IMG/VR virus record: IMGVR_UViG_3300042565_000864
Location: 1 to 34,590 of that record
Strand: one strand, 5' to 3'
Length of the DNA: 34,590 nucleotides
From: a virus
Shown one piece after another: positions 8,014 through 29,065 of the stretch. The notes beneath the pieces were generated by a model that saw nothing but the letters and a program-made list of their open reading frames with translations, made no database searches and was not told the origin of the DNA. Numbering within the stretch: position 1 is the first letter of the stretch; each line of letters starts with the position of its first letter. The translations under genes and the position numbers were made by a program.

Positions 8014-8018
8014 TCAGC

Positions 8019-8258: not shown

Positions 8259-8484
8259 TCTTGACAAAGCCAAGGTGATCGCTCACGATCGCCGTCGTGC
8301 GGCTCGCGAGAAGGAGTTCGCGCCGTTTGACGACATCATTGCCAAGCAGATCCCCGGCGTATCCGCACAGCAAGCCGAGGCCGAGCGCCAAAAGATCCGC
8401 GACAAGTACGCCGCCATGCAGACTGCAATCGATGCAGCTCAAACGCCTGACGCGATCAAAGCCGCGCTGGAAGGGGTGAAGTAA
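8245..8484 (+). CDS. small helical hypothetical protein
   Basis: The 79-residue protein is mostly charged helix (DLDKAKVIAHDRRRAAREKE, AEAERQKIRDKYAAM) with an Ala-rich end. The start at ATG 8245 follows GGAG at 8233, inside the preceding gene. It resembles short phage proteins related to tail fibre assembly or bulk-tail accessory factors only in composition and place. TAATG joins it to the next gene. Function unknown. Confidence 0.68.
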   Translation: MIKVDLDKAKVIAHDRRRAAREKEFAPFDDIIAKQIPGVSAQQAEAERQKIRDKYAAMQTAIDAAQTPDAIKAALEGVK

Positions 8485-9281: not shown

Positions 9282-9292
9282 GGATCCCCGCT

Positions 9293-10657
9293 ATGGCTAT
9301 CATGCCGCAGATCGCGATGGGGTTCCAGATGCCCCAGATCCAGTTGCCGAACCAAGGCAATATGCTCATGCAGGTTGCGCAGCTTCAGCAGATGCAGGAG
9401 GCGAACGCCTTGCGTCAGGCGCAGGCCCGCAAGCTTCAGCTAGAAGAAGAGCGAGGCAACGCGCTGGTACAAGCGTTGCGCGGCGGGCAACCCACGCTTG
9501 AGCGGCTTGTGGCGGCTGATCCTGGACGCGGGTTTGAGGTCTACAAAGCGTTTCAGGAGCAGCAAAAAGCACAGGAGCAGCAAGACGAAGAGCGCCGCAA
9601 GAAATTTGTGAGCGCCATTTACGGATCGTTTGAAGACCCGTCATTGCCGTCGTATGGCCGGTCGGTGCGGTTCTTGCAACAGCAAAAGCTGACTGACCCT
9701 GAACTGGACAAGTTCTTGGGTGACTTGATGTTTGTCGACGACGCTACTCGCAAACAACAACTCAGCACGCTGTTGAACGCGATTCCGGGCGGGGGTGACT
9801 ACATCCGCAAGATCGCCACCGAGGATGTCGAGCGCGGCGAAAAATCGGCTAGAGTGGGCAAGATTATCGCTGAGAGAGATGTAGAGCGCGCGCGTCTGAA
9901 GGGTACGCTTCCGACCCAGCCACAACAAACTGAACTGGCAAGATTGATTGCAGAGCGAGACGCACTGCCGTTAGGCAGCCCGAATCGAGAGTTGTATAGC
10001 CAGCGAATCGCTCGGCTTGGGCAGGCGCCGACAACAACGGTAGAGGTTAATACTGGCGAAAATATTGAAGAAGGCGCTCGCCGCAGAAGCTTGGTTGAAG
10101 AAGAAAATCGGGCGCGTGTGGCAGCGCAAGCAGCGCGCAAAACACTTGTGTCGGTTGACTCGGCTGAGCGCGTTTTGGACTCTGACTCTGGATTTAAGAC
10201 AGGCTTTGGCACTGAAGTCAAAGCGACCGTCGCAGGTTTGCTTGGCGCTCTTGGCGTAAAAGACGCAGAGAAATTTGCGACCAACGCGCAGACGTTCTTG
10301 AAAGCGGCGATGGACCAAGTTTTGGCGCGGCAAATTGAGCAAAAGGGTGTGCAAACCAACCAGGACGCGCAGCGCATGGAGCAGACCTTTGCGCAGTTGG
10401 GCAATACGCCAGCCGCTAATCGTTTTGTGTTGGCTGTGTTCCGCGCGCAATCAAACATGGCGCTTGAGCAAGATCAGTTCTACCGCAAGTGGGTCAAAGA
10501 CAAGGGCACCATGAAGGGCGCCGAGGATGCGTGGCTTGAGCAGCAAGGCAACAAGTCTATTTTTGAGCGGCCTGAATTGAAACAGTACGCGCCTAAAAAA
10601 GACGCACCCACACCGTTGCCAGATGTAATTAACTTCAAAGATTTGAGGTCCCGATAA
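9293..10657 (+). CDS. internal virion / DNA ejection protein
   Basis: The 454-residue protein is largely helical and rich in Gln, Ala, Arg and Glu, with coiled-coil segments around 20-110 and 240-300. It lies second in the ejection cluster, where P22 keeps gp20. ATG 9293 has GAGGA eight bases ahead and is preferred to a TTG at 9278. The C-terminus (FYRKWVKDKGTMKGAEDAWL) is typical of long internal virion proteins in this phage type. No lytic transglycosylase motif is visible. TAATG couples it to the next gene. Confidence 0.72.
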   Translation: MAIMPQIAMGFQMPQIQLPNQGNMLMQVAQLQQMQEANALRQAQARKLQLEEERGNALVQALRGGQPTLERLVAADPGRGFEVYKAFQEQQKAQEQQDEERRKKFVSAIYGSFEDPSLPSYGRSVRFLQQQKLTDPELDKFLGDLMFVDDATRKQQLSTLLNAIPGGGDYIRKIATEDVERGEKSARVGKIIAERDVERARLKGTLPTQPQQTELARLIAERDALPLGSPNRELYSQRIARLGQAPTTTVEVNTGENIEEGARRRSLVEEENRARVAAQAARKTLVSVDSAERVLDSDSGFKTGFGTEVKATVAGLLGALGVKDAEKFATNAQTFLKAAMDQVLARQIEQKGVQTNQDAQRMEQTFAQLGNTPAANRFVLAVFRAQSNMALEQDQFYRKWVKDKGTMKGAEDAWLEQQGNKSIFERPELKQYAPKKDAPTPLPDVINFKDLRSR

Positions 10658-13410
10658 TGGACGTTCGGCCGGTTCGATTGCCTAACGGCACCGTCATTGA
10701 AAATGTGCCGGTCGGGACGACGCAAGCGCAACTGATTGAACAGTTGCGCGCCAGCGGCTACGACGTCAGTCAGTTGGGCGACGCCATGCCGGCAGAACGT
10801 CGGATGCCAACGGGTCTGTTGGGGGTGCTGGGTGTACCGGAGCAAGTGGAACGCTCGATCGCCGCTGGAGCCGTCCAAGCCGCGATGACACCGCTTCAGT
10901 TGGGTGGCGCGTCAAAACTCGGCCTGCTGCCAGAACGCGGCGCTGCCACCGAAGAGTATCTGAAGCGTGAATTCCAAGCCGATCCGACAACATTTGCCGG
11001 GCAAGCAGGCAAGTTTGGCGCTGAAATGATGTTGGGCGCGCCGATTATCCGAGGCGCCGGCGCCCTGATCGAAAAGGGCGCGCCGGCTCTCGGGCAGGCG
11101 GTCAAAACAGGCGGGTTTGAGATCCCCGCAACGGTCGAGGGCGCCAGAGGCATCGGTCTGCGCATGGCAGGCGGCGGTATTGGCGGGCTTGCCGGTACGT
11201 TGCCATTCAGCCCGGAAGATGCGGTGTTTGCGGGGCCGCTTGGTGCGGTCTTGGCGCCGATTGCCCGCGCTGCTTTAGGGGGCGGTCGCACCCTTAAAGA
11301 CTTGGCTCTTTCCAGTCCGCAACAGCTTGCAGAAAATGCCTTGCTGGAAGCGGGCGGCGCTGACTTGCGGAACGCGCTGATACGCACACAGGGCATGAAG
11401 ACGACGCCTGGATATACGCCGTCCGTGCTGGAGCGAGCGGTCGAGGGCGGCGTCGACAATCTTGAGTTGGCCGCGTTACAGAACCGAATTCGGCTTGCAC
11501 CTAAAGCGGCGCAGATCCAAGCGGATTCCATCAGCAAGAACATGGGATACCTGCAAGCGCAGCTTTCTCGGATTGAAGGGCAGCTTGCGCAAGACATTAC
11601 GCGACTGTCGCCGGCCGACGCAACGCGGTTGTCCGAGGTGCGCAACAACCTTCAACGCCAGTTGGCCGCTGAAGAACAGAACTTCAACGCACTGATTCAG
11701 TCGCTGCCGCAACAACTGCCGCCTAATGTTGCCGCTGCTGCGGGGGAAGCGCCTGGTGAAGTGCTCCAAGCGCGTGCAAGCGAGTTGCGACGCCGGGCGC
11801 GCGCCTCCTATGTCGAACCTGCGTACAGGGCTGCATTCAATGCGGCTGAAGGCGCGCGCATTGACGTGACGCCTATTGCTGACGCGGCGCGCGCTGCCCT
11901 CGGGCGCCCGTTGGCCGAGTTTGCGCCTGAGTCTATGCCTGCGGTCGCGCGCGTGCTGGGAAGGCTAGAGGCGCGCCCCGTTGTCGAGACGCGCGTCAGC
12001 ACGCGCGGTCGTCCGCAGCGTGTCGTGACCGGCGAGGCGCCCCCAACGATGACTCTGGAAGAGCTTGACGCACTGCGGAAAGCGATCAACTCGGACATTG
12101 CGATGGCGCAGCGTAGCCAATCAGGATTGACGCCTGCGCAGGTCACGGATCTGTATGCGTTGCATCGGCAGATTGACAACGTCGTCAACAACGCGCCCAA
12201 CTTGTCAGATGAAGCCAAGGAGCTGTACGGACAGGCGCTTGACGTCTATCGCAATCGGTTTGCGCCTGCGTTCAAAGACAACGTGACCGGGCGGCTGCTG
12301 AAAGATACGGCGTTTGGTGAGACGCGCATTCTCCCTGAAAACACGGTCGCTGCGTACTTCAAAGATCCCACCGACACCCGTCAGTTCTTGACGACGTTCG
12401 GCGCCGACCCGCAAGCGCGCGCAGCGTTTACGACAGGCATTGAGGATTTGTTCCGCAAACAGCTTGTTGACCCCGGCACCATGCGGTTGCGGCCTGACGC
12501 AGCGGCAAAGTTTTTGGAAGAGAACGCACCAAAACTTCAAGTTCTTGAAGACGCGGGGATGCCGATCCGTCAGCGATTGGAGCGCATTCAAACCGAAGCG
12601 GCGCGGCTGGATGAAGGCTTGGCAAATGTTCAGTCCTTGCGCACAACTTTTGGTGGTGAGACGGCCCAAGACGTCGTTCAAGTGCTGCTGTCCAATCCCC
12701 GCAACATGAGCGAGGCGCTGCGAAGGCTGTCGCCAGACGGCCGAGAGGCGGTGCAGTCGGCTATTGTGACGCGCGTCAACAACTTCTTGACCGGCGATAA
12801 GCCGAACGTCGGCGGTGCCGTCAAGCTGTTGGCTGACAACAGTGCCAGCATCAAGCAGGTCATGGGCAAAGACGGCTTTGCAGATTTAGAGGCAATTGTT
12901 GCGCGCACAGGCGAATTGCAGAAAGTGTCCGCGTCGTTGGTGCGCGCTATGCCAGACGCGCGGGTGGTGCCAAAGGTCCAGCAGTTGACGGGCAACTTTA
13001 CGCAAGAAGAACTGACCGACTTGGCGTCGGTCGCTGCCGACATCGCCCGCTATCAACGCGGCGAAGGTCTGGCCGCGCTTGGAATTGCAGCCCCGCGCCC
13101 CGCCGCCCAACGGCTGGCCTCGGAAGCAGCAGAGCAGACGTCGCCTATCGCCGGGTATTCAACCCTTAATCAAGAAGTCAATCTGGCGTTACGCATCAGC
13201 CAAAACTTGCGTCAGCGCATCAACAACCGCGCCGCCAACGAACTGGCCGTTTTGATGCATCAGAAACCTGACCAAGCGTTGGAAGCGATTAACGCTGCCT
13301 TGGCGCGCAAGGAGCGCCGGACGATGTTTAGTGGGGCTGCTGGGCGCCAAACCGCGATTGTTGCGCCGCAGGCCGCGCAGCCGTTTGTGGATTTTCGCGA
13401 GGGTGAATGA
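10657..13410 (+). CDS. large internal virion / DNA ejection protein, gp16-like
   Basis: At 917 residues this is the largest protein of the window. The first 40 residues (LPNGTVIENVPVGTTQAQLI) are a short module seen at the start of several phage internal virion proteins. Residues about 70-200 contain Gly/Ala-rich hydrophobic stretches (GGGIGGLAGTLPFS) that could enter membranes during ejection, and the rest is helical, with many charged Arg/Glu/Gln repeats. No catalytic glycosidase or peptidase motif is seen. It is third in the ejection cluster, like P22 gp16, and directly precedes the lysis genes, overlapping the next start by ATGA. Confidence 0.73.
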   Translation: MDVRPVRLPNGTVIENVPVGTTQAQLIEQLRASGYDVSQLGDAMPAERRMPTGLLGVLGVPEQVERSIAAGAVQAAMTPLQLGGASKLGLLPERGAATEEYLKREFQADPTTFAGQAGKFGAEMMLGAPIIRGAGALIEKGAPALGQAVKTGGFEIPATVEGARGIGLRMAGGGIGGLAGTLPFSPEDAVFAGPLGAVLAPIARAALGGGRTLKDLALSSPQQLAENALLEAGGADLRNALIRTQGMKTTPGYTPSVLERAVEGGVDNLELAALQNRIRLAPKAAQIQADSISKNMGYLQAQLSRIEGQLAQDITRLSPADATRLSEVRNNLQRQLAAEEQNFNALIQSLPQQLPPNVAAAAGEAPGEVLQARASELRRRARASYVEPAYRAAFNAAEGARIDVTPIADAARAALGRPLAEFAPESMPAVARVLGRLEARPVVETRVSTRGRPQRVVTGEAPPTMTLEELDALRKAINSDIAMAQRSQSGLTPAQVTDLYALHRQIDNVVNNAPNLSDEAKELYGQALDVYRNRFAPAFKDNVTGRLLKDTAFGETRILPENTVAAYFKDPTDTRQFLTTFGADPQARAAFTTGIEDLFRKQLVDPGTMRLRPDAAAKFLEENAPKLQVLEDAGMPIRQRLERIQTEAARLDEGLANVQSLRTTFGGETAQDVVQVLLSNPRNMSEALRRLSPDGREAVQSAIVTRVNNFLTGDKPNVGGAVKLLADNSASIKQVMGKDGFADLEAIVARTGELQKVSASLVRAMPDARVVPKVQQLTGNFTQEELTDLASVAADIARYQRGEGLAALGIAAPRPAAQRLASEAAEQTSPIAGYSTLNQEVNLALRISQNLRQRINNRAANELAVLMHQKPDQALEAINAALARKERRTMFSGAAGRQTAIVAPQAAQPFVDFREGE

Positions 13411-13574
13411 TGGGCAACATTTCCGAAGTGGAGGCGAAGTTGATGAGTCACGAACAGGTATGCGCGGTGCGCTACGAAGGCATCAACGCTCGCCTCAAGC
13501 GGCTGGAGCATATACTGGTCGGCAGCGCCGGCGCTATCATCCTGATGTTGATCAGTCTTGTGATTAAACTGTAA
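13407..13574 (+). CDS. XhlA-like small membrane protein of lysis cassette
   Basis: This 55-residue protein (54 if the second ATG at 13410 is used) has a charged helical N-terminus (EVEAKLMSHEQ, then NARLKRLEHI) and one C-terminal membrane segment (LVGSAGAIILMLISLVIKL). That order is typical of haemolysin XhlA-type proteins, which accompany holin and endolysin genes and help membrane disruption. It is the first gene of the lysis cassette and its start overlaps the previous stop. The family call is from architecture only. Confidence 0.7.
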   Translation: MMGNISEVEAKLMSHEQVCAVRYEGINARLKRLEHILVGSAGAIILMLISLVIKL

Positions 13575-13584
13575 GAGGTCGCAC

Positions 13585-13752
13585 ATGAACTCAGCTATCG
13601 TTGCATCGATCATCCGTCACGTCCTGACGACTGCTGGCGGCGGCTTTGCCGTCGCGTGGGGCATCGACGGCGAGACCTGGCAAGGTATCGTCGGCGCCAT
13701 CGCCACGCTGGGCGGGCTGGGTTGGTCGGTCTGGGACAAGCGTCGCGTATGA
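13585..13752 (+). CDS. holin-like small membrane protein
   Basis: The 55-residue protein has two short hydrophobic stretches (about 1-25, containing LTTAGGGFAVAWG, and 33-50, containing IVGAIATLGGLGW) and a basic end (WDKRRV). This matches very small phage holins of the Pam3-gp28 kind, with two hydrophobic hairpin segments. It would make the membrane lesion that releases the endolysin. ATG 13585 follows AGAGGT, and its TGA overlaps the endolysin ATG (13749-13752), supporting the assignment. Confidence 0.77.
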   Translation: MNSAIVASIIRHVLTTAGGGFAVAWGIDGETWQGIVGAIATLGGLGWSVWDKRRV

Positions 13753-14261
13753 GGTTTGACGCCTGCCTGAAGCACGTCCTCGCGCACGAAGGAAACTTCG
13801 TTGAGCACCCCAACGATCCGGGCGGCGCTACTAACTTGGGCGTCACTAAGGAGACGTGGGAGCGGTGGGTCGGTCACGGCGTCAGCGTCGACGCCATCCG
13901 GGCGCTGACCGTCGCGGACGTGACGCCGGTCTATCGTGAAAAGTACTGGGACCGCGCCAAGTGCGGCGCGCTGCCGGTCGGGATCGACTACTGTGTGTTC
14001 GACACCGCGGTCAACAGCGGGCCAGGCCGCGCGATCAAGTTCCTGCAAGAGACGGTCGGCTCGACGTCAGACGGCGTGCTGGGGCCGCTCACGCTGCGGG
14101 CCGTCCATGCCATGAACCCGCGCGACGTCATCGACGGGTACTGCGACCGGCGCTTGGCGTTCCTGAAAGAACTCAAGACTTGGGAGACGTTCGGGCGGGG
14201 CTGGGGGCGGCGCGTGCTGGAGGTCAGGCGCACCGCCCACGAGATGTTAGCCGCGTCCTAA
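13749..14261 (+). CDS. endolysin, GH108 family glycoside hydrolase
   Basis: The 170-residue enzyme cleaves peptidoglycan glycan strands at the end of infection. The N-terminal domain (about 1-90) has the GH108 signature HEGNFVEHPNDPGGATNLGV, where E14 is the expected catalytic acid, followed by YWDRAKCGALPVGIDYCVFD. The second half (about 95-165) corresponds to the small peptidoglycan-binding domain often fused to this family (GVLGPLTLRAVHAM). There is no signal peptide or N-terminal anchor, so export would depend on the holin. It overlaps the convergent DUF3310 gene by 15 bases at the 3' ends. Confidence 0.92.
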   Translation: MRFDACLKHVLAHEGNFVEHPNDPGGATNLGVTKETWERWVGHGVSVDAIRALTVADVTPVYREKYWDRAKCGALPVGIDYCVFDTAVNSGPGRAIKFLQETVGSTSDGVLGPLTLRAVHAMNPRDVIDGYCDRRLAFLKELKTWETFGRGWGRRVLEVRRTAHEMLAAS

Positions 14262-14528
14262 AACTTCGTTGAGCTTCTTGACGTAGTGCAGGCACTTGTT
14301 GACGTCGTCTGAGTCCTTGCGCCCCTGCCGCATGGCGTACTTGATGCAATTCCCCTTGAGGAACCCGATGAACTCCTCGCGGGTCAGCACGGCCTCCATG
14401 ACGTCCCACGGTTGCACCCCCATGTCCTTGTAGTGGGTGCCGCCAACTTGCATATCGTTTGCTTTCATCTTCCAGGCTTCCTCTTCTTCCTGAGTCATCT
14501 CGATGTAGTCGTTGAGCGTCTTTACCAC
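14247..14528 (-). CDS. DUF3310 family protein
   Basis: The 93-residue protein carries the family pattern GGTHYKDMGVQPWDVMEA followed by GFLKGNCIKYAMRQGRKD and a closing HYVKKL. DUF3310 proteins are common in phages and have been labelled nucleotide-kinase-like, but the biochemical role is not settled. The start is GTG 14528 behind a perfect AGGAGG ribosome site. It is the last gene of the leftward operon, following the regulator gene by 9 bases, and overlaps the endolysin gene tail to tail. No terminator is visible behind it. Confidence 0.88.
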   Translation of the reverse strand: MVKTLNDYIEMTQEEEEAWKMKANDMQVGGTHYKDMGVQPWDVMEAVLTREEFIGFLKGNCIKYAMRQGRKDSDDVNKCLHYVKKLNEVLGRG

Positions 14529-14537
14529 GGCGCCTCC

Positions 14538-15071
14538 TCACACGATTGCCGAAAACCAACTTTGTCGAGCCGGTCGCGGAGCGGGGGCTGGCTTATACCC
14601 TGCATTTGACGTAGCTGCTCCACGGTCGGGAAGGGCCACATCGAGGTTGCGTCTCCACGAGACCGGCGCGGTTGCTTTGCCGGGGTTTTGGACGAAGAAG
14701 CCGTGTCGGACGAGTTCATTCATTGCCTTCCTGATGGTTGAGCGCCCGAGGTTCAGCTTCTCGGACAGTTGCACGTTGTCGTAAGAGACCGGCGTGTCAC
14801 CAAAGAGGTCAAACAACTTCTTTTGCGTCTCGTTCCATCGTTCGTTGGTGTTGCTCCCGTAGCCAAATGCGTACACTGCGACGGGCTGCGTAACCTTGTA
14901 GTCCCAGCGGACGACGTGGAGCAGACCTTCTTTTTTCATTGCTGCGATGAACTTGTGGACGCCGTCTGCGCCGAGGCCGGTGCTGGCGACAAGTTCCAAA
15001 GCAGTCTGCGGCTTGTCGATCAGGGACTTGATAAGCAGGGGGATGGTTGTTGCGCTTACTCTTTTGGTCAT
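14538..15071 (-). CDS. two-winged-helix DNA-binding protein
   Basis: The 177-residue protein contains two predicted winged helix-turn-helix domains. The first (about 10-65) has ALELVASTGLGADGVHKFIA and a wing ending HVVRWD; the second (about 90-140) has LSEKLNLGRSTIRKAMNELV with GFFVQNPG. A basic, Pro/Ala-rich tail follows. This is the only clear sequence-specific DNA-binding protein in the window and is a candidate regulator of the early-late switch. A replication-initiator role at the iterons is an alternative. It overlaps the preceding gene by ATGA. Confidence 0.75.
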   Translation of the reverse strand: MTKRVSATTIPLLIKSLIDKPQTALELVASTGLGADGVHKFIAAMKKEGLLHVVRWDYKVTQPVAVYAFGYGSNTNERWNETQKKLFDLFGDTPVSYDNVQLSEKLNLGRSTIRKAMNELVRHGFFVQNPGKATAPVSWRRNLDVALPDRGAATSNAGYKPAPAPRPARQSWFSAIV

Positions 15072-15310
15072 GTGTTTTTATCCTTAAGTTTTGCTTCGAT
15101 CAACTTAGCAAATCGCTCATGTCCTGCGCTCGCGCCACCGAACCAAACTTGTGCTGCGAGCTGCTCAACTTCTTCATCCGTCAGTCCGACCCATTGGCGC
15201 TGCTTGAGGCGCTTGATCTCTGCCATATGCTCTCGCAACGACTCCTGCGTTGCTTCAAGGAGCGACCAGTCGCGCTTGCCGAGCTCGCACTTCATCGCTT
15301 CAATGCTCAT
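15068..15310 (-). CDS. small charged hypothetical protein
   Basis: The 80-residue protein starts at ATG 15310 behind GGAG and is helical and charged (SIEAMKCELGKRDWSLLE, MAEIKRLKQRQ). The second half contains GLTDEEVEQLAAQVW, a segment seen in several phage small proteins. No known domain. ATGA overlaps join it to genes on both sides, so it is translated as part of the leftward operon. Confidence 0.68.
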   Translation of the reverse strand: MSIEAMKCELGKRDWSLLEATQESLREHMAEIKRLKQRQWVGLTDEEVEQLAAQVWFGGASAGHERFAKLIEAKLKDKNT

Positions 15311-15504
15311 TTCGTTAACTCCTCCATCGCTCTCCATGCCGGTCGCCACACCTCGCAATCCAGACAAGTCGGGTCACCGCAGTCAGGATCAACATGGACA
15401 AGAAACCGCTCAAGGATCTTCACCAACTGCCCGACAATAGCTTCATGCTCCATGACCGTCATTGTTGGGATGCCGTCTATCATTCTCGTGAACTTGGGTT
15501 TCAT
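15307..15504 (-). CDS. small Cys-containing hypothetical protein
   Basis: The 65-residue protein has a hydrophobic-charged helix (VMEHEAIVGQLVKILERFLV) and a cluster CGDPTCLDCEVW near residues 42-52, which could bind a metal ion. No named family is recognised. It ends in an ATGA overlap with the downstream gene. Confidence 0.62.
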   Translation of the reverse strand: MKPKFTRMIDGIPTMTVMEHEAIVGQLVKILERFLVHVDPDCGDPTCLDCEVWRPAWRAMEELTK

Positions 15505-15507
15505 CTC

Positions 15508-15747
15508 TCACCTCTGCTTAAAGCCCAGACGCCGCATCCCGAGTTCGATCAGCATGGCTGCGTCCTCAAGGCTGTTCTGGGAACTGCTCATGGCTGTCTG
15601 CCATTCGCCACCGATCAGCTTGCCGACCAGACCGACCGTGACGATCTCACCGTTCTTGGCATCCTCCAGCCATTGCTCAAGCAGTGCAATCGCGTCGGAG
15701 TTGTCGGGCGTAGTGGCTTTGATAAATGGTTTGATGTTGTCGGTCAT
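15508..15747 (-). CDS. small hypothetical protein
   Basis: The 79-residue acidic-helical protein (DAIALLEQWLEDAKNGEIVT, NSLEDAAMLIELGMRRLG) has no motif I recognise. ATG 15747 overlaps the stop of the upstream gene by ATGA. The sequence around LEQWLEDAKNG resembles short phage proteins of unknown role. Confidence 0.66.
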   Translation of the reverse strand: MTDNIKPFIKATTPDNSDAIALLEQWLEDAKNGEIVTVGLVGKLIGGEWQTAMSSSQNSLEDAAMLIELGMRRLGFKQR

Positions 15748-15938
15748 CGCTCATCCCTTGCTTTCAACATGGCGTCTGCTTGCTCGTACGCAGCGCGGGA
15801 CATCTCGTAAAAGTCCCAACCCGTATCAGGGGCGGTTAGGTAAGCTTGCATCGCCTTGGCCGCAAAGTAGTCCCTAAGCGTCATGCCTTGATATGCCGTC
15901 CCCGTCGGGAACGCCGGTCCACCTGTTGGTTTATTCAT
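15744..15938 (-). CDS. small phage protein with GGPAFP...GMTLRDYFAAKAM motif
   Basis: The 64-residue protein begins with NKPTGGPAFPTGTAYQGMTL and continues RDYFAAKAMQAYL and MSRAAYEQADAMLKAR. This arrangement is very widespread in tailed phages as a short protein of unknown function. No membrane segment or metal site. It sits in an unbroken run of small overlapping genes. Confidence 0.8.
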   Translation of the reverse strand: MNKPTGGPAFPTGTAYQGMTLRDYFAAKAMQAYLTAPDTGWDFYEMSRAAYEQADAMLKARDER

Positions 15939-15941
15939 CTC

Positions 15942-16136
15942 TCACTCCAATAGTTCTTTGATGGCTGGCGGGATCTTGGGCAGCGGCGCCCAGCCGACCC
16001 ACCAGCCGTCCTTGTTGCCGGCCATCTTGCCGGTCGAGGCGATGCCCGCACGGTTAAGCAGTTGCACCCGCTCGCCCGTGGGGCAGGTCTCGATCGACTG
16101 CCAGAAGTAGTCCGGGTCAACCTTCGCGCGGTCCAT
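15942..16136 (-). CDS. DUF551-like small protein
   Basis: The 64-residue protein starts at ATG 16136 behind GGAG. It has FWQSIETCPTGERVQLL near the start and GWWVGWAPLPKIP near the end; such a W-start / WxPLP-end pattern is seen in short phage DUF551-type proteins. The function of this group is unknown. It overlaps the upstream gene by 20 bases. Confidence 0.7.
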   Translation of the reverse strand: MDRAKVDPDYFWQSIETCPTGERVQLLNRAGIASTGKMAGNKDGWWVGWAPLPKIPPAIKELLE

Positions 16137-21143: not shown

Positions 21144-21863
21144 ATGAGATTCTTTACTGGCCTACACCAACCGTCGGACGCCAAGCATTTCGATGCTGCG
21201 TTCATCAGCGTTAATCGTTTGCGCCCGCGCAAGAGCGCCTTCCAAGTGCAGGACTGGATCATGGATAGCGGCGCCTTCACCGAGATCAGCACGCACGGCC
21301 GATACCGGCATGACGTCGCTGAGTATGCGTCCGAGATCCGGCGCTGGGCCGACAATGGCAACCTGCTGGCGGCGGTCGCGCAGGATTGGATGTGCGAGCC
21401 GTTCATCGTTGAGAAGACTGGCCTGTCGGTCGACACGCACCAGCAGCTCACCGTCGAGCGATACGACGCGCTGCTGGACGCCGACCACGGCGCCGTCTAC
21501 ATCATGCCGGTGTTGCAGGGCTACGCTTGCGACGACTACCTGCGGCACTTTGACCGCTACGGCGCGCGGCTGGCCGAGGGCGCGTGGGTCGGCGTCGGGT
21601 CAGTCTGCAAGCGCAACGGCAAGCCGATCGACGTCGAGAACGTTCTGTCGACGATCAAGCGCGCGCGGCCTGATTTACGACTGCACGGGTTTGGTCTGAA
21701 GACGACGGCGCTCTCGCACCTGCCGGTCCGGTCCGCGCTGCATACGGCTGACTCAATGGCGTGGTCGTTTCACGCGCGGATCAACGGCCGCAACGGCAAC
21801 GACTGGCGCGAGGCGAAGGCGTGGACGGCCAAGATCGAGGAGAGACTCCGTGCTGTGGCTTGA
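21144..21863 (+). CDS. DpdA / queuine tRNA-ribosyltransferase-like protein
   Basis: The 239-residue protein resembles tRNA-guanine transglycosylases (TGT) in their phage form. Signatures: WIMDSGAFTEIS, the counterpart of TGT DSGGF with D41 as the expected acid/base; MPVLQGY at 121-127; GVGSVCKR; GFGLKTTAL; and HTADSMAWS with D203 in the nucleophile position. DpdA-type proteins exchange guanine in DNA for 7-deazaguanine bases. It is short compared with bacterial DpdA and TGT, and the Zn-binding part of TGT is absent. No preQ0/preQ1 synthesis gene (folE, queD, queE, queC types) is in the window, so precursor would come from the host or missing genome parts. It overlaps the polymerase start by 14 bases. 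Confidence 0.82.
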   Translation: MRFFTGLHQPSDAKHFDAAFISVNRLRPRKSAFQVQDWIMDSGAFTEISTHGRYRHDVAEYASEIRRWADNGNLLAAVAQDWMCEPFIVEKTGLSVDTHQQLTVERYDALLDADHGAVYIMPVLQGYACDDYLRHFDRYGARLAEGAWVGVGSVCKRNGKPIDVENVLSTIKRARPDLRLHGFGLKTTALSHLPVRSALHTADSMAWSFHARINGRNGNDWREAKAWTAKIEERLRAVA

Positions 21864-23718
21864 TTTCGAGACGCGCTCCGAGTGCGACCTGATCGCACGG
21901 GGCGCCTACACTTACGCTCAAGACCCCTCGACGCAGGTGCTCTGCATGGCTTGGGCGGTCGACGACGAGGACGTGCAGGTCTGGACGCCCGACCAGCCGT
22001 TCCCGCAGGCCGTGCGGGATGGCATCCAGAATCTGGACACCATCGCCGCCCACAACGCTGCGTTCGAGCGTCTGATCTTCTGGTATGTGCTCTGCCCCGA
22101 CTACGATCTGCCCGAGCCGCGTCTGGAGCAGTTCTACTGCACCGCCGCGCAGGCGCGCGCCAATTGTGCGCCTGGCTCGCTTGAGGACGTCGGTCGGTTC
22201 TCGGGTGCCAGCATGAAGAAGGACCATCGCGGGGCTGCGCTGGTCAGGAAGTGCTGCGTGCCGCCCTTCAAGCATACCGAGCAAGATCTGGCCGATCTGT
22301 TTGAATACTGCGCGCAGGACGTGCGGGCGATGCGGGCGATCAGTCAGGGCTTGCGGCCGTTGTCGGCTGATGAGCTTGCGGACTACCACGTCAATGAGCG
22401 GATCAACGATCGCGGCGTGCGGGTGGACGTCGCGCTCTGCCATGCGGCGCTTGCTTACGCGGCGCAGGAGAGTATCGACATCACGGCGCGGGTGCGCGAA
22501 CTGACCGACGGCGCGGTGCGCACGGTGCGCTCGCCCGTGCTGCGCCAGTGGGTGCTGGAGCGGCTGGGGCCGAGGGCGCGCAAGCTCGCGGTCAGCAAGG
22601 ACCGCGATTCCCTTGACAAATCAGTGCGGGCGAATCTGCTCGCGTTTGGAGATGATGATGAGGTACCGCCCATTGTTGCCGAGGTCATCCAGTGCACGGA
22701 CGACCTCTGGGCTTCTGCGGTCGCGAAGTATGCAAAGCTCGCTGCCTTGGCTGATCCGGAGGACCAGAGAGTTAGAGGCGCATTTGTCTTCGCTGGTGGA
22801 GCAGCTACAGGACGTGCATCAAGCTACGGCGCGCAGGTCCACAACATCCCTCGAAAAGCCGCAAAAGCTCCACTAAAGGTCCGGGCCAGCATGATGGCGC
22901 GGGCGCCGCTTGCGCCGGCGCACGGCACGCGGGTGACCGACGTGCTGAAGCTGATGCTCCGGCCGACGCTGCTACCCGACCCCGGCAAGTCGTTCGTTGT
23001 GGCCGATTGGTCGGCGATCGAGGGCCGGGTCAACCCGTGGCTTGCGAAGTCGCCGACCGGCGAGGCGAAGCTTGACGTGTTCAGGCGGCGGCTGGACCCG
23101 TACAAGGTCAATGCCGCCGCCACTTACGGCGTCGCGTATGAGGACGTGACCGACGACCAGCGCCAGATCGGCAAGGTGCAGGAGTTGGCGCTGGGGTTCG
23201 GGGGCGGCGTCGGTGCGTTCGCGGCGATGGGTCGCGGTTACGGCGTGCGGATCGAGGAGGCGCAGGCGCAACGGATCGTTGACGCTTGGCGCCGTGCGAA
23301 CCCTTGGGCGCCCGCGTTCTGGTCTGACATCGAGCGGGCTTACTGGTCCGCGATGCGGCACAAAGGGACCGCCTACGAGGCCGGCCGCGCGACCTATATG
23401 TACGACGGCACGCACCTGTGGTACGCGCTGCCGTCAGGCCGGATCTTGTGCTACCCGTATGCCCGGATCGAGGGTGACGAGATAACGTATGCGAAGGCCA
23501 GTTGGAAGCCGGCGGCTGACGCGAAGGAATGGCCGCGGGCGCGCCTGTGGCGCGGTTTGGCCGACGAAAATCTGACGCAAGCCGCCGCGCACGACATCCT
23601 GCGCCATGCGCTGCGACAGCTAAACGACGTGGTGCTCCACGTCCATGACGAGATCGTGATCGAGACAGACAGACCAGAGGAGGTCAAGACAGGGGCTGCC
23701 GTTGGCAGTGGAGGCTAA
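21850..23718 (+). CDS. family A DNA polymerase, 3' end frameshifted
   Basis: The 622-residue replicative polymerase has an N-terminal 3'-5' exonuclease (DFETRS with D5 and E7; AHNAAFER; YCAQDVRAM) and a palm with motif A VADWSAIEGRVN (D386), motif B IGKVQELALGFGGG (K442) and motif C HVHDEIV (H599-E601). The start is GTG 21850 behind GAGGAG. After DRPEEV the frame reads TGAAVGSGG and stops at 23718, whereas the family normally continues for about 40 residues and ends in a strand like the one present in the +1 frame. The exonuclease and motifs A to C are intact; the final strand and a preceding helix are lost in this frame. Activity is therefore uncertain. Confidence 0.9.
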   Translation: MLWLDFETRSECDLIARGAYTYAQDPSTQVLCMAWAVDDEDVQVWTPDQPFPQAVRDGIQNLDTIAAHNAAFERLIFWYVLCPDYDLPEPRLEQFYCTAAQARANCAPGSLEDVGRFSGASMKKDHRGAALVRKCCVPPFKHTEQDLADLFEYCAQDVRAMRAISQGLRPLSADELADYHVNERINDRGVRVDVALCHAALAYAAQESIDITARVRELTDGAVRTVRSPVLRQWVLERLGPRARKLAVSKDRDSLDKSVRANLLAFGDDDEVPPIVAEVIQCTDDLWASAVAKYAKLAALADPEDQRVRGAFVFAGGAATGRASSYGAQVHNIPRKAAKAPLKVRASMMARAPLAPAHGTRVTDVLKLMLRPTLLPDPGKSFVVADWSAIEGRVNPWLAKSPTGEAKLDVFRRRLDPYKVNAAATYGVAYEDVTDDQRQIGKVQELALGFGGGVGAFAAMGRGYGVRIEEAQAQRIVDAWRRANPWAPAFWSDIERAYWSAMRHKGTAYEAGRATYMYDGTHLWYALPSGRILCYPYARIEGDEITYAKASWKPAADAKEWPRARLWRGLADENLTQAAAHDILRHALRQLNDVVLHVHDEIVIETDRPEEVKTGAAVGSGG

Positions 23719-23743
23719 AGTGATGGCGAGGTATGGAAAATGA
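23684..23743 (+). pseudogene. displaced C-terminal tail of DNA polymerase (+1 frame)
   Basis: In the +1 frame relative to the polymerase, bases 23696-23743 encode LPLAVEAKVMARYGK and stop, the typical end of phage family A polymerases. Its TGA (23741-23743) overlaps the next ATG (23740) as ATGA, the coupling expected of an intact gene. The frame is open only from 23660. About 15-17 residues of the expected helix before GLPL are missing, so a deletion of length 2 modulo 3 explains both the loss and the shift. An AGGAGGT element lies at 23678-23684. Confidence 0.75.
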
Positions 23744-26019
23744 CTGATTTCATCGAATGGTTCGCGGGCCTTGCGGCCGAGGGCGAGACGGCGCTGCTGG
23801 TGCGCCAGCGGGGGCGCGGCTACATCGCGACGCTGCCGCGCGACTACCGACCGGGCGGCGCCTGGTACGGTAATACTGGTTCGTTCATCGAGGAGCGGCT
23901 GAAGGACCGCTTCAGCTTCACCCGCGACAACATCGAGCACGTCTTGGTGCTCATGCTGGACGACATCGGCACGAAGGTGCTGAAGCAGCCGCCGCTTGCG
24001 CCGACTTGGCGCATGGAGACCTCGCCGGGTAATGAACAGTGGGGCTACGCGTTCAGGTTCGACGATCAGCCGACCAAGGCCGAGTTCGCGGCCGCCGTGG
24101 CGGCGATGGCCGCGGCCGGCTGGACGGACGAGGGCGCGACGAACGCGGTGCGCAACTTCCGGCTGCCGGGCAGCGTCAACCTGAAGCCTGGCCGCGACGG
24201 GTTCGAGTCGCGCTTGGTCGAGTTCGCGCCCGAGCGCGAGTACTCGCTCGCCGAGGTCTGCGCGGCGCTGGGCGTCACGCCGGGCGCCCCGTCTGCTGAC
24301 GTGGTCAGCACGATCGTCGACGACGGCGCCGACGATGAGGTGCTGGGCTGGCTGGCCGCGAAGGGCTGGCTGCTTGAGCGGCCGAACAGTGCCGGCTGGG
24401 CGGGCATCGTCTGCCCTAACGCGGACGAGCACTCGAACGATGACCCCGAGGGCCGGTATTTCCCCGCCAGCCGCGCGTTCAAGTGCCTGCACGGGCACTG
24501 CGCCGGCTGGGACAGTGTGCGCTTTCTCGACTGGGTGGCCGAGCAGGGCGGGCCGAAGGTCGGCTACGGACTGCGCGATGAGCTTGTACAGGCGCAGATG
24601 GCGGCGGCGCTCGAGCGTGTCGCGCCGACCGAGGCTTACCCGGACGACGCGGCGGCGGTCGTCGCCGAGGCCGACCGGCGCGAGGCCGGGCGGGTCGAGA
24701 AGGCGGGTTGGTTCAAGCGGTTCGCGTACTTGCACGCGGATGACGGCTATTTCGACTTGGTGGAGCGGAAAGAGTATAGCCGCGCCAACTTCAATGCCAT
24801 TTTTAGGCACGTCGACTGTCGATCGATCCACGCGAATCCGGGCGGCAAGCCGCGCCGGATTGAGGCGAGCGTATCGTTCGACGAGCACCGTCAGGCCATG
24901 GGCGCGAGAGTGCTACAGGGCGTGACCTACGCGGCGGGTGAGGGCGTGCTCGTGTCACGGGCCGGCGACGTGTTCGCGAACCTCTGGCGCGACGGCCGGC
25001 CGGCCGGGTCGAGCGGCGACGTGTCGGCCTGGCTCGCGCATGCGGAGCGGATGATCCCGGACGCGGTCGAGCGTGAGCACGTCTTGGATTGGATGGCCTT
25101 TAAGGTTCAGTTTCCTGCGATCAAGGTCAATCACGGCGTTCTACATGGCGGCATACCGGGCAGCGGCAAGGATACGCTCTGGGCGCCCTTCCTGTACGCG
25201 ATCGGCGGCGCCGGTAAAGCGAACGTCGCGATCGTAAAAAACGAGGAATTGACGTCGCAGTGGGGTTACGCGTTGATGTCGGAAGTCATGGTCATCAATG
25301 AATTGCGGCAGGTCGAGGCGGCCGACCGGCGCGCGCTCGAGAACAGGCTCAAGCCGATGCTGGCGGCGCCCCCTGAGACGTTGAGCGTGAACAGGAAAGG
25401 ATTGCATCCGGTCGACATTTTGAACCGGCTAGCGGTCGTGGCATTCTCGAATGAGCGCGTGCCGATTGTGCTGACCGGCGACGATCGGCGCTGGTTTGTG
25501 GTCTGGTCTGACGCGGAGCGAATGGCCGACCGTGACGCAACGCGGCTTTGGGACTGGTACCGGGACCGGGGCGGGTTTGACGCGATCGCCGGGTGGCTGC
25601 GCGCGCGGGACGTCTCGCGGTTCTCGCCTGGCGCGGCGCCGATGACAACGGAAGCGAAGGCGATCATGACGCAGGCGGCGCTGTCGCCCGTCGAGGCGAC
25701 CTTGATCGAGATGATGACGGAACGGCGCGGCGAGTTTGCGTTAGGGGCGGCGCAGGGGCCATGGCCGCAGCTTTGCGACCGTCTGGCGGGGCACATGCCC
25801 GTCGGCGCGCGCTGTTCCGTTTGGGCGTTGTTTAGGGCGTTCAGGGATGCCGGCTGGCTGGATCTTGGGCGGGTCAAGACAGTCGAACATCAGACGAAGG
25901 CGCACGTCATGTGCGCACCGGACGTCTGGGAGCGACTAGGCGAGAATCGGTCCGAGGTGCGGCGGCTTTGCGAGAGGGCCAAGTCGGGCGCCGGCGGCGC
26001 GGCGCTGCGCGCGGTGTAA
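23740..26019 (+). CDS. primase-helicase (RepB-like primase plus SF3/D5-type helicase)
   Basis: The 759-residue protein supplies priming and unwinding. Residues about 1-165 resemble RepB-like/archaeo-eukaryotic primases (WRMETSPGNEQWGYAFRF, FRLPGSVNLKPGR). A zinc-binding motif follows with C225, H231, C249 and C254 (CLHGHC), as in DNA primases. The C-terminal third is an SF3/NrS-1-like helicase: Walker A GGIPGSGKDT (K477), Walker B-like SEVMVINEL, and FSNERVPIVLTGDDRRWFVVW with sensor and Arg finger. It directly follows the polymerase with ATGA overlap. Intact, with no odd features. Confidence 0.87.
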   Translation: MTDFIEWFAGLAAEGETALLVRQRGRGYIATLPRDYRPGGAWYGNTGSFIEERLKDRFSFTRDNIEHVLVLMLDDIGTKVLKQPPLAPTWRMETSPGNEQWGYAFRFDDQPTKAEFAAAVAAMAAAGWTDEGATNAVRNFRLPGSVNLKPGRDGFESRLVEFAPEREYSLAEVCAALGVTPGAPSADVVSTIVDDGADDEVLGWLAAKGWLLERPNSAGWAGIVCPNADEHSNDDPEGRYFPASRAFKCLHGHCAGWDSVRFLDWVAEQGGPKVGYGLRDELVQAQMAAALERVAPTEAYPDDAAAVVAEADRREAGRVEKAGWFKRFAYLHADDGYFDLVERKEYSRANFNAIFRHVDCRSIHANPGGKPRRIEASVSFDEHRQAMGARVLQGVTYAAGEGVLVSRAGDVFANLWRDGRPAGSSGDVSAWLAHAERMIPDAVEREHVLDWMAFKVQFPAIKVNHGVLHGGIPGSGKDTLWAPFLYAIGGAGKANVAIVKNEELTSQWGYALMSEVMVINELRQVEAADRRALENRLKPMLAAPPETLSVNRKGLHPVDILNRLAVVAFSNERVPIVLTGDDRRWFVVWSDAERMADRDATRLWDWYRDRGGFDAIAGWLRARDVSRFSPGAAPMTTEAKAIMTQAALSPVEATLIEMMTERRGEFALGAAQGPWPQLCDRLAGHMPVGARCSVWALFRAFRDAGWLDLGRVKTVEHQTKAHVMCAPDVWERLGENRSEVRRLCERAKSGAGGAALRAV

Positions 26020-26053
26020 AAGAAAATGCCCGCCAGACTTGCGTCGGGCGGGC
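26018..26053 (-). terminator. intrinsic terminator of leftward small-gene operon
   Basis: On the minus strand GCCCGCC (26053-26047) and GGCGGGC (26034-26028) pair, with a further GAC/GTC pair and a four-base loop, and the sequence continues ATTTTCTTTT (26027-26018). This is a standard rho-independent terminator ending the leftward operon against the 3' end of the primase-helicase gene. On the plus strand no U-run follows. Confidence 0.75.
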
Positions 26054-26092
26054 GAACAGTGCAAGGGCCACTGAGGAGGAGAGACCAGAGAC

Positions 26093-26155
26093 CTACAGGC
26101 GCAGTATAACCGCGATAATGGTCGCCAGCAAAGCAAGTAGCGCGGCCGCTATCAT
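26093..26155 (-). CDS. 20-residue single membrane-segment peptide
   Basis: ATG 26155 to TAG 26093 encodes 20 residues, almost all hydrophobic (IAAALLALLATIIAVIL with a final RL), forming one short membrane helix. The start overlaps the stop of the previous gene by ATGA, the same coupling as between confirmed genes here. It is the last gene before the terminator. Very small size keeps confidence modest. Confidence 0.45.
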   Translation of the reverse strand: MIAAALLALLATIIAVILRL

Positions 26156-26325
26156 TTTTGGACCTCGAACTTCAGGGATTCGAGCGCGTACTTGAGCGAC
26201 AGGCGCGCGTCGAGGATGGTGCTGTAGTCGAGCGGGGGCTGGTGCTGGGCACTGGGCGGTATCGTCCGGGTCCATTCGAGCACGGCGAGGGCGGTCGCGA
26301 GCGTGCGGGCGTCGATTGTGGGCAT
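26152..26325 (-). CDS. small hypothetical protein
   Basis: The 57-residue protein starts at ATG 26325 (weak GGA ahead), with MPTIDARTLATALAVLEWTR and a helical end SLKYALESLKFEVQK. It is below 60 residues and easily missed. The frame is tied to both neighbours by close spacing (2 bases upstream, ATGA downstream). Function unknown. Confidence 0.55.
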   Translation of the reverse strand: MPTIDARTLATALAVLEWTRTIPPSAQHQPPLDYSTILDARLSLKYALESLKFEVQK

Positions 26326-26327
26326 GG

Positions 26328-26528
26328 TCAGTCCAATTCCGGCCGGTCGGCCGCGGTGAGGTTAACGATCAGCACGGCGGCCGGCAGGCCGTCGGCGCCC
26401 CAATTGACGCGCGCGATGCGGCCGTCGATCGACTCGATTGTGCCGACGGCGAACGGCATCGGGCCGGTGAACAGCCCGACGGAGCGCAACCAGCGTGCTG
26501 CAAACTTGACGCGGTCGCCCGGCTTCAT
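26328..26528 (-). CDS. small beta-rich hypothetical protein
   Basis: The 66-residue protein (MKPGDRVKFAARWLRSVG, TGPMPFAVGTIESIDG, RIARVNWG) looks like a small SH3/KOW-like barrel, with a G-D-RV start and I-R-NWG turn often seen in short phage proteins. ATG 26528 overlaps the clamp-like gene TGA by ATGA; the frame continues upstream but runs into that gene. Function unknown; RNA or protein binding is a guess from the fold. Confidence 0.66.
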   Translation of the reverse strand: MKPGDRVKFAARWLRSVGLFTGPMPFAVGTIESIDGRIARVNWGADGLPAAVLIVNLTAADRPELD

Positions 26529-27139
26529 CGTGCGGCCCCTGTCTCGGTCAGTGTGGCCCATGACGGCAGGGTAGCGTCCGGCTGGCGCCACGGCATGATG
26601 ATGGCGAGCGCGTCCGGGACGGCGGCGGCGGTCACAAGGGACGGCTTGGTGCCGTGTTGACGCATTTGGATATCACCCTCGTCGGCGCCCATGAGCTGAA
26701 GGGCCGCGTGGACGCGCGCCAGAAGTGCCGGGTTGAATTGGGCGGGTTCGATCGGGGTGATTGAGGGGAGCGGCGTCACTCGGTCCGTGTCGGGATAGGT
26801 GCCGTCGATCGCTTTCCCGGTCCGCACGGTCCCGTCCGGTTCAGTAAGGGTTATCGTGCCGTCCGACTGAATGTCGACCTGGACGGCATCAAGCAGGGTT
26901 TTGCGGCCCTTGCCGGCGGCGCCCTCGAGCAGGGCGCGCGGGATGATGGTGGACGTCATGGGCGCGGGCGCCGCGTCGACGCGGACGCGAAGCATCGCGT
27001 GCCCGTCGGTGGCTTCAACGATCGTGCCGCGCGCGTCAGTCTTGACGCGGGCGCCGATCAGGTAATAGCGCACGTCCGTAGTGGGCGCGATCGTGAGCAG
27101 GGCGCGGATCGTGCCGCGCGTGAGCGTGAGTGCAGGCAT
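26525..27139 (-). CDS. sliding-clamp-like (DnaN-type) protein
   Basis: The 204-residue protein resembles part of a bacterial beta clamp: VEATDGHAMLRVRVDA corresponds to the clamp ATDGHRL segment, and GKAIDGTYPDTDRVTP to the G-x-FPDY-x-x-VIP segment. Length allows two clamp domains rather than three, as in some phage clamps; a trimer would restore a ring. It would be a processivity factor for the family A polymerase encoded elsewhere, or a decoy of the host clamp. ATG 27139 has GAGG nine bases ahead. It lies far from the replication operon and on the other strand. Confidence 0.68.
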   Translation of the reverse strand: MPALTLTRGTIRALLTIAPTTDVRYYLIGARVKTDARGTIVEATDGHAMLRVRVDAAPAPMTSTIIPRALLEGAAGKGRKTLLDAVQVDIQSDGTITLTEPDGTVRTGKAIDGTYPDTDRVTPLPSITPIEPAQFNPALLARVHAALQLMGADEGDIQMRQHGTKPSLVTAAAVPDALAIIMPWRQPDATLPSWATLTETGAAR

Positions 27140-27176
27140 GGTACTGGACCTCATTGGATGATGACGCAAGACGCGT

Positions 27177-27200
27177 CCGTGAGCGCACGCGCGCTCACGG
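27177..27200. repeat. perfect inverted repeat before clamp-like gene
   Basis: CCGTGAGCGC and GCGCTCACGG pair as ten base pairs with loop ACGC, in the 76-base gap between the small membrane protein gene and the clamp-like gene. No U-run follows on the minus strand, so it is more likely a processing or attenuation hairpin than a terminator. Confidence 0.55.
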
Positions 27201-27215
27201 CCGTACCCTGATCGA

Positions 27216-27359
27216 TTATTGGCGCGCCAGTTTGCGGGCGCCAAAGGCGGCGATGATGAGGCCAACGATGGCTTGGATGATGATGAGGGTTAGGGGCGCG
27301 TCATGGGGCGCGTCGACGGCGCCCATGGCGAGCATTAGCCCGAGACAAAAGCGGATCAT
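27216..27359 (-). CDS. small two-segment membrane protein
   Basis: The 47-residue protein starts at ATG 27359, overlapping the previous stop by ATGA. It has an N-terminal hydrophobic segment (FCLGLMLAMGAV) and a second one (LTLIIIQAIVGLIIAAFG), with a basic end (ARKLARQ). It is a probable inner-membrane peptide of unknown role; a lysis-related or host-takeover role cannot be judged from sequence. Confidence 0.6.
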   Translation of the reverse strand: MIRFCLGLMLAMGAVDAPHDAPLTLIIIQAIVGLIIAAFGARKLARQ

Positions 27360-27568
27360 TGTTTATCCCCTGCGACGATGACCGACCACGGCTCACCGCG
27401 TGCGGTAGTGCCCCAATACCAGCGAGAGCCGTCCGGTTCGTCGCTGTAGTCGTCGCATTCGACGAGCAGGAAATGATCATAGTCGGGGTCCGCCTCAAGG
27501 CGCGCGGGCGTGGTGAGCACGCCCGTACCCTCGTCGATCGCGCTTTCCACGATGTCACGGTTTCCCAT
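27356..27568 (-). CDS. small acidic hypothetical protein
   Basis: The 70-residue protein is acidic, with VLTTPARLEADPDYDHFLLV and ECDDYSDEPDGSRWYWG. It begins at ATG 27568 behind CGGAGCAT and is coupled to the membrane peptide gene by ATGA. No motif known; acidic aromatic small proteins in such operons are often inhibitors of host enzymes, but this is only a possibility. Confidence 0.62.
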   Translation of the reverse strand: MGNRDIVESAIDEGTGVLTTPARLEADPDYDHFLLVECDDYSDEPDGSRWYWGTTARGEPWSVIVAGDKQ

Positions 27569-27572
27569 AGTC

Positions 27573-27758
27573 TTATGCTCCGATCAGTTTGCGAGCGTAG
27601 TGCAGGGCCGCGTCGGGGTTTGAATAGGTGCGATGCTCGATCGTCGCGTCCGCGTCCTCGTCGCGGAAAGTGACGATAAACCGGCCGGACGGCCAATCGG
27701 CCGCGACGCGTACCGAGAGATTCGCGGCCGCGTCGTGCGCAGTGAAAATTGTGTCCAT
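27573..27758 (-). CDS. small hypothetical protein
   Basis: The 61-residue protein starts at ATG 27758 behind AAGGAAA. It has alternating strands (LSVRVAADWPSGRFIVTFRD, ATIEHRTYSNPDAALHYA) ending ARKLIGA, which suggests a small alpha/beta fold. An upstream extension of the frame overlaps the Cys-rich gene and is not preferred. Function unknown. Confidence 0.65.
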   Translation of the reverse strand: MDTIFTAHDAAANLSVRVAADWPSGRFIVTFRDEDADATIEHRTYSNPDAALHYARKLIGA

Positions 27759-27790
27759 GGTCGTTTCCTTGTTTGAAAGTCTGTAGTGTA

Positions 27791-28027
27791 TCAAATTGTG
27801 CAGCATCCGCAACACGGCGCGTCTTCGCAGCGGCCGTTGACGTTGCGGTAGAACGTCCGATCGCCGAAAGTGTAGGTGTCGGACACTGGCGCGGGGTTGT
27901 GGGTTGAGCTGCGGGACAGCAGCACGGACCGTCCGCGGCCGTGGAACATGATACGGTCGCCTGGCCGAATCTCGCGGCCGGTCCGGTAGCAGACACCGGG
28001 GAAGCGTGCGGTCATTTCTTTTGCCAT
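27791..28027 (-). CDS. small Cys-rich hypothetical protein
   Basis: The 78-residue protein starts at ATG 28027 behind a strong GGAGG site. Residues 1-35 (FPGVCYRTGREIRPGDRIMF) resemble short phage proteins that have a C-x-x-(S/T)G-x-x-I-x-x-GD element of rubredoxin-like or knuckle type, and the last ten residues hold C-x4-CC-x-CC. These cysteines could bind zinc. No function can be given. Confidence 0.66.
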   Translation of the reverse strand: MAKEMTARFPGVCYRTGREIRPGDRIMFHGRGRSVLLSRSSTHNPAPVSDTYTFGDRTFYRNVNGRCEDAPCCGCCTI

Positions 28028-28030
28028 GGA

Positions 28031-28276
28031 TCAGGCCTCCGTCGCACGCTCTAGCAGCGTGATAGTGCGGTTATCGTCAATCAACTTCATGCCGGCCGCG
28101 GTCGGCCGGTACCAGTCAGCGCCAAACCGAGTCGCGAGCAGCGTGCCGTAGTCGCGCGCACGCTCCGCGAGCGTAGTGCCCGGCCGATCGTTGACGTGAT
28201 TGGGCGGAACCGAATAAACCGCGCGATTTCCTGACGGCAGAATTACCGCAAGGATTGAGTCAGACAATACGGGCAT
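28031..28276 (-). CDS. small hypothetical protein
   Basis: The 81-residue protein begins at ATG 28276 with CGGAG ten bases ahead. It contains ILAVILPSGNRAVYSVPP, TLAERARDYGTLLATRFGAD and NRTITLLERATEA. A longer frame from ATG 28315 would translate the hairpin arm and is not preferred. A four-base gap separates it from the Cys-rich gene. Function unknown. Confidence 0.64.
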   Translation of the reverse strand: MPVLSDSILAVILPSGNRAVYSVPPNHVNDRPGTTLAERARDYGTLLATRFGADWYRPTAAGMKLIDDNRTITLLERATEA

Positions 28277-28293
28277 GGTGAACTCCGAGAGTA

Positions 28294-28313
28294 GGCGCGC
28301 CCGTAGGCGCGCC
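28294..28313 (-). promoter_or_regulatory. cUACGg hairpin ahead of ribosome site
   Basis: On the minus strand the RNA reads GGCGCGCC-UACG-GGCGCGCC: an eight-base-pair all-GC stem closed by the very stable UNCG-type loop cUACGg. It lies eight bases after the previous stop and about 17 bases before ATG 28276. No U-run follows. Same hairpin at 29315-29334. Confidence 0.65.
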
Positions 28314-28321
28314 ATGAGGGT

Positions 28322-29065
28322 TTAAAAGTACTTCGCGCCGTTGCCGTGAACCACGATCGCAACGCTAGCCTGGCCGGCGCGCGTTGCGCCGTCGCACGCT
28401 CCGCAATCGATACACTGTTTGCGGTCACCGCCTTCCGGGCTGGCCGGACACGCGAACTCGCGCGCGGCCAGTGGCGCGCCTTGCTTGACGACCGTGAAAG
28501 TGCGCCAGCCTTTGGCGCGCGCCTGATCGCGATCGCGTGCCGAGTCGGCGGACGCCATGACGATCGGCGCCAAGTCGGCCGCGAGCGGTTTACGCCACTG
28601 ATGGGTGTATCCAGTGTGACCTTTGGCATCGGCCAAAAGGGCAATCCAGACGTGCGCCGGTATCGCGGCCGGATCGCCGTACGCGCCAAGTCTGACCATG
28701 CGACCGGCGAGATATTGGGCGCCGTCCACGGGTTCAAGGGTAGGGTATGAACCGCGCGCGAAAGCATTGAAGACTTGTTGGACGGACTTACCGACGTCGA
28801 CGTAACACGTCCGGACACGGCGCGACGTGAACCGGCCGGTTTTGCGATCGCGCTCACGAATGGTTTTGGGGCGATGCGGACAAGTACCGCAGATCGCGAC
28901 GTCGGCGCCTGACGCGAGCGCCGTCAGGGGCGTCATGTCGGACCGTAGGATATAGGTCTGGACCATGTCGCCCGTCTTACCATTGTCGCTGTGCAGCGTC
29001 GCGATACCGACAATCGGCGCCCCGTCCAACATGGACGGGCCTTGATAAAAGATGAATCCACGCAT
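28322..29065 (-). CDS. Cys-rich hypothetical phage protein
   Basis: The 247-residue protein is the largest in the leftward small-gene operon. It has GDMVQTYILRSDMTPLTALA, then CGTCPHRP (residues about 59-66), RTCYVDVG, GRMVRLGAYGDPAAIPAHVW, GYTHQW and GWRTFTVVKQ, and a second Cys cluster CIDCGACDG near the end. This order is familiar from a conserved phage family of unknown function; the cysteines suggest one or two metal ions. ATG 29065 has AGGAGCACACC ahead. It is flanked by hairpin leaders on both sides. Confidence 0.75.
   Translation of the reverse strand: MRGFIFYQGPSMLDGAPIVGIATLHSDNGKTGDMVQTYILRSDMTPLTALASGADVAICGTCPHRPKTIRERDRKTGRFTSRRVRTCYVDVGKSVQQVFNAFARGSYPTLEPVDGAQYLAGRMVRLGAYGDPAAIPAHVWIALLADAKGHTGYTHQWRKPLAADLAPIVMASADSARDRDQARAKGWRTFTVVKQGAPLAAREFACPASPEGGDRKQCIDCGACDGATRAGQASVAIVVHGNGAKYF

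Follow-up and report, generated by a model that had tools for sequence, protein, structure and literature searches.

Podovirus-like phages carry family A (Pol I-type) DNA polymerases, and those closest to the gene considered here are members of phrog_17 (L050, L052, L053, L065 and others) that are 90–96% identical to it over residues 1–614. In most of them a primase-like gene lies directly downstream, as it does in the window (the whole stretch of DNA analysed, a linear virus record of 34,590 bases), and the same C-terminal codons are found in the window in the +1 frame. The difference is that these relatives have an additional 41 nt and read in one continuous frame to RYGK and the stop codon, whereas the window polymerase stops 8 codons past a deletion junction. 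A second point of comparison is the +1 frameshifting of release factor 2 (prfB), in which the shift codon CUU directly precedes UGA and a Shine-Dalgarno sequence acts as a conserved stimulator of the shift (PMC5009743). The window resembles prfB in that a codon which could re-pair in the +1 frame is preceded by a Shine-Dalgarno-like sequence.

Profile searches recognised genes in the window for an Hc3-type head closure protein, a scaffold, a major head protein and a terminase, together with a family A polymerase, a primase-like protein, an exonuclease and an SNF2-type helicase. This gene content fits a podovirus-like phage, the relatives of which are known mainly from metagenomic contigs. One of these contigs, L097, carries both window ends (positions 1 and 34590) in conserved order and about 2.7 kb apart, an arrangement which suggests that the record is short by about 2.7 kb of a genome of roughly 37 kb. 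The L097 ORFs in the segment absent from the record look structural, as judged by eye. On the minus strand, positions 26525–27265 give a weak match to PF02767 (E = 2.6e-5, under the curated cut-off), the central domain of the DNA polymerase III beta sliding clamp, and it is possible that a phage-encoded clamp of this type is specified there.

The locus is made up of two adjacent open reading frames:

21850–23718, plus strand: family A DNA polymerase ORF (3'-5' exonuclease and polymerase), assigned from PF00476, phrog_17 and its relatives
23740–26019, plus strand: primase-like ORF, intact and directly 3' of the polymerase (phrog_1156, E = 2e-21)

The polymerase ORF begins with GTG at 21850 and encodes 622 aa before a TAA stop at 23716–23718. 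It ends in PEEVKTGAAVGSGG and the stop, the frameshifted tail being GAAVGSGG (in KTGAAVGSGG). The match to PF00476 has an E value of 2e-14 and a score of 53.6 against a cut-off of 34.3, with the profile covering the palm and fingers, and phrog_17 is matched with an E value of 4e-93; protein identity to the relatives is mostly 61–96%. Motif C (HDE) is kept as HVHDEIV, and H610, D611 and E612 are invariant in alignment A1. Past motif C, the window polymerase lacks a complete C-terminal helix and the last palm strand. Judged by its sequence, the protein is a broken member of family A (PF00476/phrog_17), its descent from the family being unaffected. Relatives of the downstream primase-like ORF reach 98–100% identity.

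Some observations concern the surroundings and family of the polymerase gene. Directly 5' of it, at 21144–21863, lies a gene of the DpdA family (deazapurine DNA modification; PF23859, E = 5e-43), at a position where close relatives have a few bases only. This gene overlaps the polymerase start, and the start codon is GTG in the window compared with ATG in the relatives examined. In L052, a different gene lies between the polymerase and the primase (about 11955–12650) and is PAPS-reductase/QueC-like on the basis of an SGGKDST motif. Because DpdA is found 5' in the window and the L052 insert is found 3', the two borders of the polymerase gene are sites of gene gain. Finally, the polymerase ORF of L061 (10001–12844) is 947 aa long and appears from its sequence to contain an intein of about 300 residues (GLA/CIAKGTPV ... 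LIVHN/CEN), located before the conserved CEN motif; the window polymerase and its nearest relatives have ADEN where L061 has ACEN.

Comparison of the polymerase 3' end with intact relatives places the lesion and its consequences as follows:

23690–23691, plus strand: deletion junction, 41 nt absent, from DNA alignment and blastn gaps against L050, L051, L053, L065, L080 and L084
23691–23718, plus strand: out-of-frame tail of the polymerase ORF with the premature TAA at 23716–23718, from translation
23693–23743, plus strand: C-terminal codons of the original gene, now orphaned in the +1 frame (GLPLAVEAKVMARYGK and stop), recognised from synonymous-only differences from L065, L053 and L080

A single gap of the same 41 nt separates the window from all six relatives, its placement being ambiguous by one base. 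The deletion amounts to 14 codons minus one base and, since 41 is 2 modulo 3, the frame switches after 23690/23691; eight codons (GAAVGSGG) are then translated out of frame before the stop. The +1 frame is open from 23660 to 23740, and its TGA at 23741–23743 overlaps the primase ATG at 23740, just as the polymerase stop and primase start overlap in L053, L065 and L080. Eight relatives (90–96% protein identity) continue in one frame to PEEVKTMLEQVMTTPPDWAQGLPLAVEAKVMARYGK and the stop, or a close variant of this end, and have 30 more residues after DRPEEVKT (or a close variant) up to RYGK. At the sequence level, the identity of the +1 tail to the C-terminus of the relatives is far beyond chance. 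The preliminary description had the polymerase frame ending in GAAVGSGG at 23718, took the +1 frame for the normal tail with a TGA overlapping the next ATG, and proposed that a deletion of length 2 modulo 3 accounts for both the lost residues and the change of frame. These proposals agree with the alignments to the base.

The locus would be explained by a single 41-nt deletion near the 3' end of the polymerase gene, either in the phage or in its assembled sequence only. Translation would proceed eight codons out of frame to the stop at 23718, giving a product in which the last helix is cut to its first half, with no turn after it and no final palm strand; such a product would most likely be inactive. 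Working from the assembled record, we consider it highly probable that one such deletion occurred, that it is either very recent or an error of library preparation or assembly, and that no dedicated recoding device is involved. The deletion should be recent or artefactual because the rest of the gene is undecayed and the codons past the junction are still of the intact type.

In order to place the lesion in time, the window gene was compared with intact relatives, giving dN/dS values of 0.12–0.22, compared with 0.11–0.18 between intact relatives (pairs computed). The 16 orphaned codons differ from those of L065, L053 and L080 by synonymous changes only. The low dN/dS and the synonymous-only tail indicate selection for the full polymerase until very recently, and they argue against long-standing relaxed selection. 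Normal constraint on the rest of the gene and an unspoiled tail are consistent with an artefact, in which the gap was produced by a chimeric or damaged read, or by an assembler that merged strain variants where coverage was low and the sequence variable; we give this explanation an even chance. The lack of relaxed selection is also to be expected of a genuine inactivating deletion, if young, in a sub-population or defective genome of the phage, a reading that we hold to be a serious one, a little short of even. A genuine event is further favoured by the lesion being single and clean in a sequence that is otherwise good. Where relatives of at least 84% identity cover the window, a gap list inspected by eye contained, among genes with a recognised function, no uncompensated indel other than the one in the polymerase. 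The remaining indels against close relatives in recognised genes were, again by eye, multiples of three, mutually compensating or located at gene ends, and general genome decay was rejected on this ground.

The lesion is isolated among its relatives. In viral_contigs, an HxHDE motif could be recognised in 42 relatives, and the polymerase end is in frame in every one of them; the same holds for six polymerases on phage contigs that had been assigned to bacterial MAGs. The 33 bases immediately preceding the junction have an exact match in 8 other viral contigs, and the gene runs in frame to its normal end in 8/8. When the junction sequence itself (as a 22-mer and as an 18-mer) was searched in viral_contigs, no other contig was found. 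Close relatives with exactly this end, regarded in the preliminary description as the observation that would speak against a lesion, were therefore sought and none was seen. As neither the complete Hc3 homologues (0/78) nor the polymerases (0/42) of this collection are broken, broken core genes are rare in it, and this counts against the explanation proposed above. The tail of L291 is a few residues shorter, in frame, and retains the PPxWA-LPL part, so the window lesion does not represent natural length variation of the last helix. Uniqueness of the junction in viral_contigs favours an artefact, and the presence of the lesion in no relative and no other sample counts against a genuine deletion.

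The intact L065 polymerase as modelled with AlphaFold2 (mean pLDDT 84; about 93–97 at the C-terminal end) has a helix at residues 620–631 and the last strand at 647–650. When aligned with Bst polymerase (4dsj; Z 23.6, rmsd 3.6, 521 residues aligned), its final residue coincides with the C-terminal end, residue 876. The deleted segment corresponds to L065 residues 626–639, which span the C-terminal half of the last helix together with the conserved PPxWA turn; the equivalent of residues 640–655, including the last palm strand, is out of frame in the window. It had been proposed that a helix of about 15 residues is missing; the loss stands, but part of the helix is retained: in the L065 model, the 14 missing residues make up the C-terminal half of the last helix and the turn that comes after it. 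The predicted window product retains the exonuclease domain and motif C (HDE). On the basis of the model, the 622-aa product is most likely inactive.

A scan of the window ORFs apart from some small ones, and not extending to the ~2.7 kb seen in L097, turned up no second recognisable DNA polymerase, and dispensability through a second polymerase was rejected on this ground. Since none was recognised, a viable phage with the lesion would be difficult to account for if the lesion were not rare, complemented by a helper or an artefact. This result favours an artefact, and a genuine deletion is made less likely by the expectation that such a phage depends on its polymerase. The same virus is represented in metagenome 3300042879 by L094, which matches window 4087–15986 at 99.992% identity, and by L183, which matches 24402–28516 at 100% identity. 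These contigs flank the polymerase site on either side, and the stretch with the polymerase falls between their matches. Assembly of the virus in that sample with the polymerase stretch left uncovered is in keeping with an artefact; against this, the rest of the window agrees with the other record, with 1 mismatch in about 16 kb. Neither is there a known assembly-error signature, as microhomology at the junction is limited to one base and the deleted segment is not exactly spanned by any strong hairpin. The fold of the region is ordinary (z −1.5 and −0.6), and deletion via a hairpin or long direct repeat was discarded on these observations. Overall, the chances that the deletion arose in the virus or in assembly only are about even.

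Two sequence elements next to the junction bear on the possibility of recoding:

23678–23684, plus strand: AGGAGGT, Shine-Dalgarno-like, coding for Glu-Glu-Val; coding sequence common to intact relatives
23692–23695, plus strand: GGG_G, candidate slip codon, taken from the codon list by inference only, with no evidence of use

The preliminary description had located AGGAGGT correctly and raised programmed frameshifting at this sequence, remarking that no slippery codon was evident. The remark requires amendment, as GGG_G is slip-capable, though at the wrong spacing. It is the only codon in the open overlap that would allow full re-pairing of the P-site tRNA in +1. A +1 slip at GGG_G aided by AGGAGGT would give a predicted product ending in EEVKTGLPLAVEAKVMARYGK, which is the normal protein minus exactly 14 residues. 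Such functional recoding would draw on this re-pairing and on a type of stimulator established for release factor 2. However, seven intact relatives (L050, L052, L053, L054, L065, L080 and L084), which need no shift, have AGGAGG in the equivalent position. Because it encodes their Glu-Glu codons, AGGAGGT did not arise as a signal; a signal role was rejected, and programmed frameshifting at this site is unsupported. The spacer between AGGAGGT and the shift codon is 7 nt, compared with about 3 nt between the Shine-Dalgarno sequence and the shift codon of release factor 2. The codon following GGG is GCT, in contrast to the poorly decoded stop of prfB, and the arrangement is conserved in none of the relatives (0/42; the junction is absent from viral_contigs). 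Furthermore, even the slipped product would have only half of its last helix and would be missing the conserved PPxWA turn. We regard functional recoding as very improbable.

Work on T7 and thioredoxin has shown that phage replication can persist when a replication factor is present in very few copies (PMC12645430), and rare slippage was retained as a possibility for this reason. Here the deletion would be real and fixed, and low-level +1 slippage at GGG_G would make enough of the 14-residue-shorter polymerase for replication; we consider the likelihood of this to be slimmer still. A literature search on the C-terminal residues of T7 polymerase found nothing useful.

The single 41-nt deletion, very recent or artefactual, is of value mainly for annotation quality: the polymerase annotated in the record needs a frameshift flag, and the eight residues at its end are unfit for use in alignments or models. 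Were the deletion shown to be real and fixed, the locus would provide a natural test of the minimum family A polymerase C-terminus, or of the amount of polymerase, that is required. Single-event indel frameshifts in phage and metagenome assemblies likewise combine an indel that is not a multiple of three with a readable downstream frame and no other decay, and the window polymerase shows no notable difference from genes frameshifted in this way. The lesion is an ordinary single-event frameshift.
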